In this document: positions 5,823-8,537 of the stretch, in pieces
Position numbering within the stretch: position 1 is the stretch's first letter
Layout: each line of letters begins with the position of its first letter
Source: Gemmata massiliana
Lineage (GTDB): Bacteria > Planctomycetota > Planctomycetia > Gemmatales > Gemmataceae
Length of the DNA stretch: 64,000 bases
Assembly (NCBI GenBank): GCA_000531095.1
Contig: HG799465.1
Span: 445,908-509,907, forward strand
Direction of reading: 5' to 3'
Notes under the pieces: generated by a model
What the model was told of the DNA's origin: nothing
What the model saw: the letters and a program-made list of their open reading frames with translations, nothing else
The model's database searches: none
Position numbers and translations under genes: made by a program

Positions 5823-6647
5823 TTACTTGCAGTTCTTCTCCACGAACGCGCGGAACGACTTGTTCAGCGGGTCCGCGTCGTTCACGAACTGGATGATGAT
5901 CGTGTAGTGATTGCGTTCCTTGCACTTGACGAGTTCGGTCGGGCTTTCGGCCTTCTTCAGTGCCGCGTGCATGTCTTCGGCCATCTTGTCGAGTTGCGGG
6001 AAGTCGTTGTCCGCATACGCGATGAAGAACGGCGGGTGCTTGCCGGCCGCGTGGGTCAGCGGGGACGCGAGTTTGCACACCTTCTCGTCCTTGCCAAACG
6101 GCCCGTCGAACACCCTTTCGCCCGCAATAATCCGGTACACACCACTCAACGACGCGACGCCCTTAATCTCTTTCGGGGAATGCTTTTCCGCCTTGAGGTA
6201 CTGCTCGTCCGTCACGAGTAGCGACACGAGGTGCCCACCCGCGGAGTGTCCGCACAGGAAGAGTTGCTCCTGCTTGCCGCCGTACTTCGCGATGTTCTCG
6301 GCCGTCCATGCGAACGCCTTCGCCACGTCCTCGATGTGGCCCGGGTGCTGCACTTGGGGCGACAGGCGGTAGTTGCAGATCACGCACCCGATACCGTCGG
6401 CCGCGAGGGACTGACCGAGGGACGCATAGATGTTCTTGTTGCCGCTCTTCCAGCTCCCGCCGTGGACGAACAGCACGGTCGGGAAGTCCTTTTTGCCCTT
6501 CGGAACGTACACGTCGAGGACGTGTCGCGCCTTGTCTGCCCCTTTGTCCGTGCGGTACGCGATGTCGGCGTGCTTCTCGAACAGAGCCGATTTGTCGTCG
6601 GCCGGTGCGCTGACGCCCAGAGCCGCCAGCACCCACAGTACGTTCAT
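5823..6647 (-). CDS. Secreted alpha/beta hydrolase (esterase/lipase)
   Basis: A 274-residue carboxylesterase of the BD-FAE/hormone-sensitive-lipase type. The start at 6647 gives a short signal-like segment (MNVLWVLAALGVSAPA). The oxyanion motif HGGSW lies near residue 63, nucleophile GHSAGG near 135, and the C-terminal acid/His region contains AYADNDFPQ and KERNHYTI. A longer frame starts 54 bases upstream but lacks a signal peptide. It converges with the acetyltransferase gene. The substrate is unknown. Confidence 0.85.
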   Translation of the reverse strand: MNVLWVLAALGVSAPADDKSALFEKHADIAYRTDKGADKARHVLDVYVPKGKKDFPTVLFVHGGSWKSGNKNIYASLGQSLAADGIGCVICNYRLSPQVQHPGHIEDVAKAFAWTAENIAKYGGKQEQLFLCGHSAGGHLVSLLVTDEQYLKAEKHSPKEIKGVASLSGVYRIIAGERVFDGPFGKDEKVCKLASPLTHAAGKHPPFFIAYADNDFPQLDKMAEDMHAALKKAESPTELVKCKERNHYTIIIQFVNDADPLNKSFRAFVEKNCK

Positions 6648-6763
6648 CGCGCTCGCCTCGTCGTCGAGTAGGGAGTCCAACTGGTGGTAATTGTAGCGCA
6701 CGATACCTCTCGGTGCGATGAAAGCTCACACCGAGATTAGATTCGCTCACCGGCACGGCAGAT

Positions 6764-7117
6764 TCAGCCGGCGAACACGCGGGAGTAGACTTCTTCGTTG
6801 AACCCGACCACGAGTGTCCGACCGACGCGGGCCGTTGGTGCCCGCAGGTTGCCCGTCGGCCCCATCAGGCGCGCGAGGAGCGTCGCGTCGTCGGGGCGGT
6901 CGTTCTTCAAGTCGAACGTCTCGACCTTCGGCCCTTTCATCGCGATGAGCGTGTCGATCCCGTCGAGCAGCGCAAGCGCATCGTCCGCACTGTAGCGAAC
7001 TTTGGTCGCGTTCACGGTTTCGGTCACGGCCACGGACTGGTGCCCAAGGAACCCCTGGGCTTTCTGGCACGTCGTTCAGGCACGCCGTTCGTAAAGCCAT
7101 TCGATCTGTTTGGACAT
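6764..7117 (-). CDS. ArsC-family thioredoxin-fold selenoprotein (UGA read as selenocysteine)
   Basis: From ATG at 7117 the frame reads MSKQIEWLYERRA, then TGA at 7078-7076, then TTCQKAQGFLGHQ and on to the stop at 6764, 117 residues in all. The UGA falls where the first Cys of the redox CxxC motif belongs, giving UTTC. The C-terminus (LMGPTGNLRAPTARVG, LVVGFNEEVY) matches ArsC/Spx-like proteins, of which planctomycete members are known as (seleno)proteins. A GAGGG ribosome binding site precedes ATG 7117, and a bacterial-SECIS-like hairpin follows the UGA. A GTG at 7033 would give a protein without the active site. A nonsense mutation remains possible; selenocysteine machinery is not in this window. 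Confidence 0.8.
7042..7060 (-). promoter_or_regulatory. Putative bacterial SECIS hairpin
   Basis: Fifteen bases after the UGA the mRNA reads GCCCAGG-GGUU-CCUUGGGC: a 7-bp stem with one bulged U and an apical loop starting with GG. Loop G residues about 23-24 bases after UGA fit the published bacterial SECIS rules (short upper stem, G in the first two loop positions, 16-37 bases from UGA). Confidence 0.6.
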
Positions 7118-7140
7118 CGGTCCCTCTGGAGTGGAAATCG

Positions 7141-7171
7141 GAAAGCCCGCGAACGCCGTTCGCGGGCTTTC
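7141..7171. terminator. Strong palindromic hairpin
   Basis: GAAAGCCCGCGAAC at 7141-7154 pairs perfectly over 14 bp with 7158-7171 around a GCC loop. A-run and T-run ends make it terminator-like in either direction. It lies 24 bases upstream of the selenoprotein ATG, so it could also be a leader structure. Confidence 0.5.
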
Positions 7172-7553
7172 CTGTGTAACCGATTCGCCGGTCTACTTCT
7201 GAACCTGGTTCGCGGAACGCTCACGGCACCGCCGGGCGGCGCGCCCCTGCGCATGCAGGAGAACCACGACCGGCGGGGTTGTTCCAGGCTCCTGCATGCG
7301 CAGGGGCGCGCCGCCCGAAAGCGGTGCTGGAACAGCGTTCCCCGAGACGCATGGCGTAGCAATCGCTCGGACGACGCAACATCGTCCTGCTGCAAAGCAG
7401 CGAGCTAAAACCGTACCGAATCCGTTGTGGGCGTTGTAGCCGAGCGGAGAGCGAGGGCAAGCGGCAGAAGAACCTAACCCCCTAACCCCCTTCCCTAAGA
7501 AGGAAGGGGGAACAGAACCAAATACACAGACCACCAAACTTCAATCGGCGGTT
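7172..7553. other. Non-coding interval filled with palindromic repeats
   Basis: No gene recognised. It contains the long inverted repeat at 7214-7341 and the start of a REP-like cluster at 7481. Confidence 0.6.
7214..7341. repeat. Long inverted repeat with 29-bp perfect inner arms
   Basis: The segment at 7233-7261 is perfectly complementary to 7289-7317. Outside this the pairing continues imperfectly (GGAACGCT at 7214-7221 with AGCGTTCC at 7334-7341, GCACCGC with GCGGTGC). The 27-base centre is non-coding. It looks like a mobile palindromic element. Confidence 0.65.
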
Positions 7554-7640
7554 TTAAGCCCCTCTCCGCTTAGGGGAGGGGTTGGGGAGGGGTTGCCTTT
7601 GTTGCTCCCCCTTCCCTTTAGGGAGGGGGCCAGGGGGGTA
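7481..7640. repeat. Cluster of GGGGAGGG/CCCCTCCC REP-like palindromes
   Basis: Three short hairpins in a row: CCCCCTTCC with GGAAGGGGG (7486-7510), CCCCTCTCC with GGGGAGGGG (7559-7581) and CTCCCCCTTCCC with GGGAGGGGG (about 7605-7630). The phosphoesterase reading frame runs into this cluster before stopping. Confidence 0.6.
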
Positions 7641-8537
7641 GGTCTTCGGTAACTCGAACTCGAACGTGTCTGTGTCCACGAACGTTCGCGTCGCCAGATC
7701 GTACACGCGACGTTGCCCCTTCAGGTGCCAGCCGTCGATGGTGTAGTCGTGGTAGCCCCACCGGCGCGTTTGCGTCGAACTCCCGGTGCAGATCGTCGGG
7801 AACGGCAGGTTCGGTGCGGCCGGTAGCATGTACCAGTGGTGCCGGTGCCCGTGCAACCACAAGCTCACGCCGCACTCGGCTGCGACGTCGCGTGCCGCGT
7901 GCCAGTCGTGGAGCCGGTGCCAGCGGGGTTCGACTTGGTGGCCCTCTTTCAAAAGCGGGTAATGACTCACGACGATGCGCGGGCCGGCGTCCAGCGTGGC
8001 GCACAGCGCGCGAAAGCGTTCGAGCTGCGGAACTCCGACGCGCCCGGTCGCGTCCCAGAAGAGGACGTTCGGCTTCGCGGAGTTGAGCGCGATCAGCCAC
8101 ACGTGCCCGACCTTCTGTGCGAACGGGTACGGGTGCGCGCGTACTCGCTGCCCTTGCTGCCACGGCGCGAAGGGCGTTTCAAAGAACCGGTCGCGGACCG
8201 AGCGCCGGATGTAGAGATCGTGGTTGCCCGGAACAGCGATCCCGGGCGGAAGGGCCGCATCACCCACACCGAGCCGCGTCGCGGCTTCGGCCATCTCGGA
8301 GGGGAAGCCGAGTGCGGTCGCGTCACCGGAGAACACGAGGTGGTCGAAATCTCGTGAAGCGAACTCGGTCCGGAGCGCGGCCGTGACGTCGTTCGCGTGG
8401 AAGAACCGCGAACCGCGCCCGAGCAGCCTCACGTTTACCAGGCCCGTGGTGCGCTTGTTGAACGTGTCCCGTACCCGCCAACCGAGTGGCCGGGCGGTCA
8501 AGTGGATGTCGCTGAAGTGCGCGAGTCGGATTGCCAT
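7554..8537 (-). CDS. Calcineurin-like metallophosphoesterase
   Basis: A 327-residue metallophosphoesterase. Metal motifs occur in order: DIHLT (D-x-H) near residue 10, FSGDAT (GD) near 71, PGNHDLY (GNHD) near 105, VVSHYPLL near 190 and GHRHHWY near 227. This is the Calcineurin_5'-nucleotidase/cpdA-like set for two metal ions. The start at 8537 (MAIRLAHFSDIHLT) places the first motif correctly; an upstream ATG adds 14 residues. The last 30 or so residues (PPGPLPKGKGEQQ, NPSPKRRGA) are encoded by repeat DNA and are probably not part of the fold. It is divergent from the SDR gene. Confidence 0.85.
   Translation of the reverse strand: MAIRLAHFSDIHLTARPLGWRVRDTFNKRTTGLVNVRLLGRGSRFFHANDVTAALRTEFASRDFDHLVFSGDATALGFPSEMAEAATRLGVGDAALPPGIAVPGNHDLYIRRSVRDRFFETPFAPWQQGQRVRAHPYPFAQKVGHVWLIALNSAKPNVLFWDATGRVGVPQLERFRALCATLDAGPRIVVSHYPLLKEGHQVEPRWHRLHDWHAARDVAAECGVSLWLHGHRHHWYMLPAAPNLPFPTICTGSSTQTRRWGYHDYTIDGWHLKGQRRVYDLATRTFVDTDTFEFELPKTYPPGPLPKGKGEQQRQPLPNPSPKRRGA

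Follow-up and report, generated by a model that had tools for sequence, protein, structure and literature searches.

Whether the UGA at the redox site of a small ArsC-like gene is read as a stop or as selenocysteine (Sec) is the question raised by this locus, which lies in a 64,000-nucleotide window (the whole stretch of DNA analysed here) from Gemmata massiliana. From ATG 7117 on the minus strand, preceded by AGAGGGACCG, the gene runs for 13 codons to the UGA and then for 103 codons up to the stop TGA at 6766-6764, and translation from 7117 to 6764 with the TGA as a residue gives MSKQIEWLYERRA-U14-TTCQKAQGFLG...RVFAG (Table 1). The sequence-only reading had held that the UGA takes the place of the first Cys of a CxxC motif (here UTTC) and that frame, start and ribosome-binding site are intact, and both statements were confirmed. 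It had also noted that standard gene calling would begin at GTG 7033 and lose the active site, which is exactly how the gene appears in the standard (table 11) ORF list. A strong hairpin directly upstream of the gene in the window, without a terminator-like T run, is also found 5' of the gene in four related genomes (G009, G011, G024 and G026).

Table 1. Positions in the window of the ArsC-like gene, its parts and its signals.
Feature	Position	Strand	Basis
ArsC-like (seleno)protein gene, 117 residues with U14	6764-7117	-	NF041106 match; stop TGA 6764-6766
In-frame UGA, codon 14 (candidate selenocysteine), first position of UxxC	7076-7078	-	TGA in 60 of 82 homologues, TGC/TGT in 21
Cys17 codon, presumed resolving cysteine of UTTC	7067-7069	-	at least 90% conserved
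Ribosome-binding-site-like AGAGGGA, 5' of ATG 7117	7121-7127	-	sequence
SECIS stem-loop, 8-bp stem, GUU apical loop 7052-7050	7042-7060	-	pairing and compensatory pairs in TGA genes
5' module, codons 1-33, with UGA and SECIS	7019-7117	-	55% identity to the Cys version of the closest relative
Gene body, codons 34-117	6767-7018	-	94% identity to the Cys version of the closest relative
5' intergenic hairpin GAAAGCCCGCGAACGGCGTTCGCGGGCTTTC	7141-7171	-	hairpin also in relatives

In profile searches, the read-through product matched the NCBIfam family NF041106 'ArsC family (seleno)protein' over the whole model (1-107 of 107) with 140.6 bits against a cut-off of 85, and Pfam ArsC with 26.9 bits against a cut-off of 24. 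Given this score, and the family's entry as the selenoprotein 'Arsenate reductase-like protein, UxxC' in a 2026 review (PMC13188914), the family is already known, as the sequence-only reading had stated; the window gene, above the curated cut-off across the full model and with a UxxC site, is a member with no difference in kind. ArsC-like and 'Arsenate reductase 2' selenoproteins have been reported from Desulfotalea, Desulfuromonas and the GOS metagenome (PMC1794560, PMC2398784). Compared by description, 'Arsenate reductase 2' shares the UxxC motif and ArsC fold of the window gene, whereas the GOS 'ArsC 1' carries UxxS instead.

AlphaFold2, for which the input comprised 70 window and locus sequences and U14 was modelled as Cys, returned a model with a pLDDT of 90.4, in which residue 14 stands immediately before helix 15-26. 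Among solved structures, the closest in sequence and fold were Spx, YffB and ArsC-like proteins (1rw1, Z 8.8, rmsd 2.5, 84 aligned; 3ihq, Z 8.8, rmsd 2.7, 88 aligned), and the thioredoxin-fold ArsC-like architecture is common to the window protein and to the non-seleno, Cys-containing Spx/MgsR and YffB. The protein nevertheless falls outside the Spx/MgsR family TIGR01617, scoring 31.9 bits under a cut-off of 75.05. No arsenate reductase equivalog was among the NCBIfam matches at E<=1, and the label 'arsenate reductase' is not justified for this gene. From the modelled fold and the motif, we infer a redox role for UxxC.

Of 95 Gemmataceae genomes, 82 carry a member of NF041106 above the cut-off; in a sample of 392 genomes from across the phylum the number is 80, mostly with exactly one TGA. 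Across the 82 aligned Gemmataceae genes, codon 14 is TGA in 60, TGC in 15, TGT in 6 and anomalous in one (G027, with TCT close to a contig end, which was excluded from the trees but tallied with the non-TGA genes, 22 in all, in the SECIS comparison). Exchange of UGA with Cys at a redox position, which the sequence-only reading had proposed to look for and which serves as a criterion for bacterial selenoproteins, is thus seen among the homologues (60 TGA and 21 Cys of 82). The 13 codons 5' of the UGA are conserved as well, and TGA stands at this codon in homologues from Phycisphaerae, Zixibacteriota and gammaproteobacterial MAGs.

The hairpin 3' of the UGA, GCCCAGGG-GUU-CCUUGGGC, has its apical loop 23 nt from the UGA and a local MFE of -14.2 kcal/mol, and it conforms to the bacterial SECIS model given in PMC13188914 (loop 3-9 nt, stem 4-16 bp, spacing 16-37 nt, MFE <= -7.5, and a G within the first two loop positions). 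The earlier claim of a SECIS-like hairpin at the right distance is therefore borne out. A hairpin of this kind proves nothing by itself, and its single-sequence significance is poor: its energy against shuffles gave z between -1.4 and 0, and of a sample of TGA triplets from the window, 26% are followed by a model-passing hairpin and 4% reach -14 kcal/mol.

When the 60 TGA genes (54 distinct rows) were compared with the 22 non-TGA genes, 91.2% of the cells of the 8-bp stem with GUU loop were paired in the former, with compensatory changes, against 43% in the latter, while stem registers slid along the alignment were 29-64% paired. The covariation score of the TGA genes was 0.234, a value that none of 500 shuffles attained (0.129 +/- 0.011). 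The column pair 21-35 alternates between UA, CG and GC, with a minimum of 8 changes along the gene-body tree. Its two partners are the wobble base of an Ala codon and the second position of a codon for Glu, Gly or Ala, a link for which constraints on the protein offer no easy explanation. With RNAalifold, the stem was recovered in TGA genes and was absent from the non-TGA genes, and the AQGFL(G/E) stretch encoded by the stem is mostly lost in Cys proteins. An alternative SECIS with a bulged U and a GGUU loop fitted less well (88.9% paired) and was rejected. The sole Rfam match in 6600-7300, His_leader on the other strand, was likewise set aside, its 23 bits lying below the gathering score of 49. 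Only the comparison of homologues lends the selenocysteine reading support beyond chance.

The sequence-only reading had proposed a search for the sel genes, which succeeded for three of them and in part for selB. A tRNA-Sec is present (72 bits, over the cut-off, with ARAGORN in agreement), SelA and SelD scored 549 and 383 bits in a profile search of the genome, both above curated cut-offs, and selB is present with its frame interrupted in the assembly, its GTPase domain and C-terminal remainder lying in different frames. Within selB (L022 1333-3556; contig C3, about 432,830-435,060), the two parts are separated by a repeat-rich insert between the GTPase domain and the next domain. An interspersed repeat, GAAGAACCTAACCCCC..., at 7467-7650 on the plus strand of the window belongs to a set of dozens of related genomic copies (74 matches, of which some are partial or overlapping), and similar sequence occurs in selB of this strain (G000) and of its nearest relative, G009. 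A phage-integrase-family gene (PF00589, 33 bits) is situated about 170 bp from that for tRNA-Sec (L023 2979-4453, contig C9), and by this adjacency selC may be an integration site. Genomes with the Sec version and those with the Cys version did not differ significantly in the presence of tRNA-Sec plus SelB (Fisher p 0.75), a lack of association that is expected if other selenoproteins exist and that lends no support. Six genomes of the genus with the Cys version (G009, G011, G015, G016, G018 and G022) retain tRNA-Sec and SelB, and therefore other selenoproteins should exist there. Formate dehydrogenase was considered as a further selenoprotein of the window genome and rejected, there being no in-frame stop among the matches listed.

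Insertion of selenocysteine at UGA 7078-7076 is very likely, in view of the conserved TGA, the covarying stem, tRNA-Sec, selA and selD, and a selB with an open frame in the nearest relative. SelB carrying Sec-tRNA(Sec) would bind the hairpin at 7060-7042 and insert selenocysteine at residue 14 of a 117-residue thioredoxin-fold protein of the ArsC/Spx superfamily (NF041106). Sitting where the first helix begins, the selenolate might then form a UxxC redox pair with Cys17, near the conserved Pro94.

Comparison of close relatives revealed a mosaic gene. Judged by SelB, with 96% identity, the Cys-type G009 is the nearest relative of the window strain, which is of the Sec type; between the two, identity is 90-93% in the flanks and 94% in codons 34-117, against only 55% in the first 99 nt. 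This 5' segment of the window strain instead resembles that of the Sec-type genomes G012, G024 and G026 (83-86%), while G009 and G011 have a common Cys-type segment (88%). Trees built from the DNA of 21 genes conflict: for the module, a single change separates Sec from Cys types (support 100/100), whereas the body requires four and places the window strain with G009 (98/98) within a clade that includes G011 (98/98). In AU tests, grouping of the window strain with G009 was rejected for the module (p 0.0001), and a single Cys clade was rejected for the body (p 0.0005), for which G009 with G011 to the exclusion of the window strain was not rejected (p 0.18); these p-values are somewhat optimistic because the groups were chosen after the identities had been seen. 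Extended to 81 genes, the analysis required 8 changes on the module tree and 15 on the body tree. A search of the window strain's genome for a silent Cys module elsewhere found no such copy.

The conflicting trees suggest an in-place exchange of the module with Sec and SECIS for a Cys module, and such an exchange of a short module is the simplest reading of the mosaic. The window strain against G009 is the clearest case; the second, G013 against G016, is messier, since the parts conflict in the trees but the flanks place G016 at another locus, so that it is not a clean case of exchange. Either Sec was regained in the window strain or Cys was acquired in G009. Taken as a whole, the explanation of Sec at U14 through SECIS and SelB, a UxxC redox pair and in-place module exchange is one in which we have high confidence, and the earlier interpretation as an ArsC-like selenoprotein is supported.

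That the UGA might be a real stop, leaving a pseudogene or just an 89-residue product from GTG 7033, would agree with the interrupted selB frame, with a hairpin that is not significant by itself and with TGC in the close relatives G009 and G011, but it is highly improbable given 60 homologues with TGA at this codon, conserved codons upstream of it and a covarying stem. TGC in close relatives together with decayed downstream sequence in this strain was one of the findings that the sequence-only reading had named as evidence against itself; the first was found, whereas downstream of the UGA the frame is open and conserved, the codons that differ from those of G009 comprising 10 synonymous and 6 nonsynonymous changes. 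Read-through of another kind, by a near-cognate tRNA or with TGA reassigned as in code 4, would equally let the frame go on beyond the TGA, yet it is hardly credible in a genome that encodes tRNA-Sec, SelA and SelD, for a gene whose own stop is TGA, whose SECIS stem is under selection and whose exchange partner is Cys at a redox position. A more substantial, though still unlikely, alternative is that the Sec gene was inherited by descent and selB was lately broken by a repeat insertion, so that Sec is no longer inserted. The insert does lie between inverted repeats (1842-1878 and 2089-2125 of L022) and brings a frame change and internal stops, and a genuine break would abolish Sec insertion in this strain. 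However, the insert also contains an N and long homopolymers, which make its reading frame unreliable; in G009 a related insert occupies this site and is read through in one open frame, and between these genomes the coding parts of SelB differ by 25 synonymous against 1 nonsynonymous and by 85 against 21 changes. The interruption more likely reflects a stretch that the assembly left unresolved than a real break.

As for the mosaic, it might have arisen without recombination, by fast point evolution after Sec/Cys conversion, with the SECIS holding the Sec modules alike. This is doubtful, although it deserves more weight than the alternatives above: the SECIS constrains codons 20-26 strongly (95-100% identity among near Sec relatives), and the pair G002/G003, with 0.84 for both module and body, resembles a simple point conversion. 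Against it, the module without the UGA codon and the SECIS stem still rejects the grouping of the window strain with G009 (AU p 0.002), 45% of sites changed in the 99 nt compared with 6% in the body, the intergenic DNA directly upstream of these 99 nt is almost identical, and one Cys allele is common to G009 and G011. Homologous exchange of a module of about 100 nt (codons ~1-33), by which Sec and Cys forms would interconvert, is accordingly favoured here as the probable route, with moderate confidence.

In the accessible parts of the earlier reports, Sec/Cys conversion is described without recombination (PMC1794560, PMC13188914), and the available text of the latter contains no mention, for the NF041106 family, of Gemmataceae distribution, SECIS covariation or a module mosaic. 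A literature search of incomplete coverage for recombination in Sec/Cys exchange returned nothing relevant. The module mosaic seems new, and a prior report elsewhere is possible.

A protein common to most Gemmataceae loses its active site under standard gene calling. Moreover, conversion of Cys to Sec requires that a UGA and a functional SECIS be present simultaneously; the module proposed to be exchanged holds both together, so that a lineage might regain selenocysteine in one step. If true, a short exchangeable segment with UGA and SECIS would be a simple one-step route to Sec, and this family, in which close relatives carry either a Sec or a Cys allele at a shared locus, makes the route testable.
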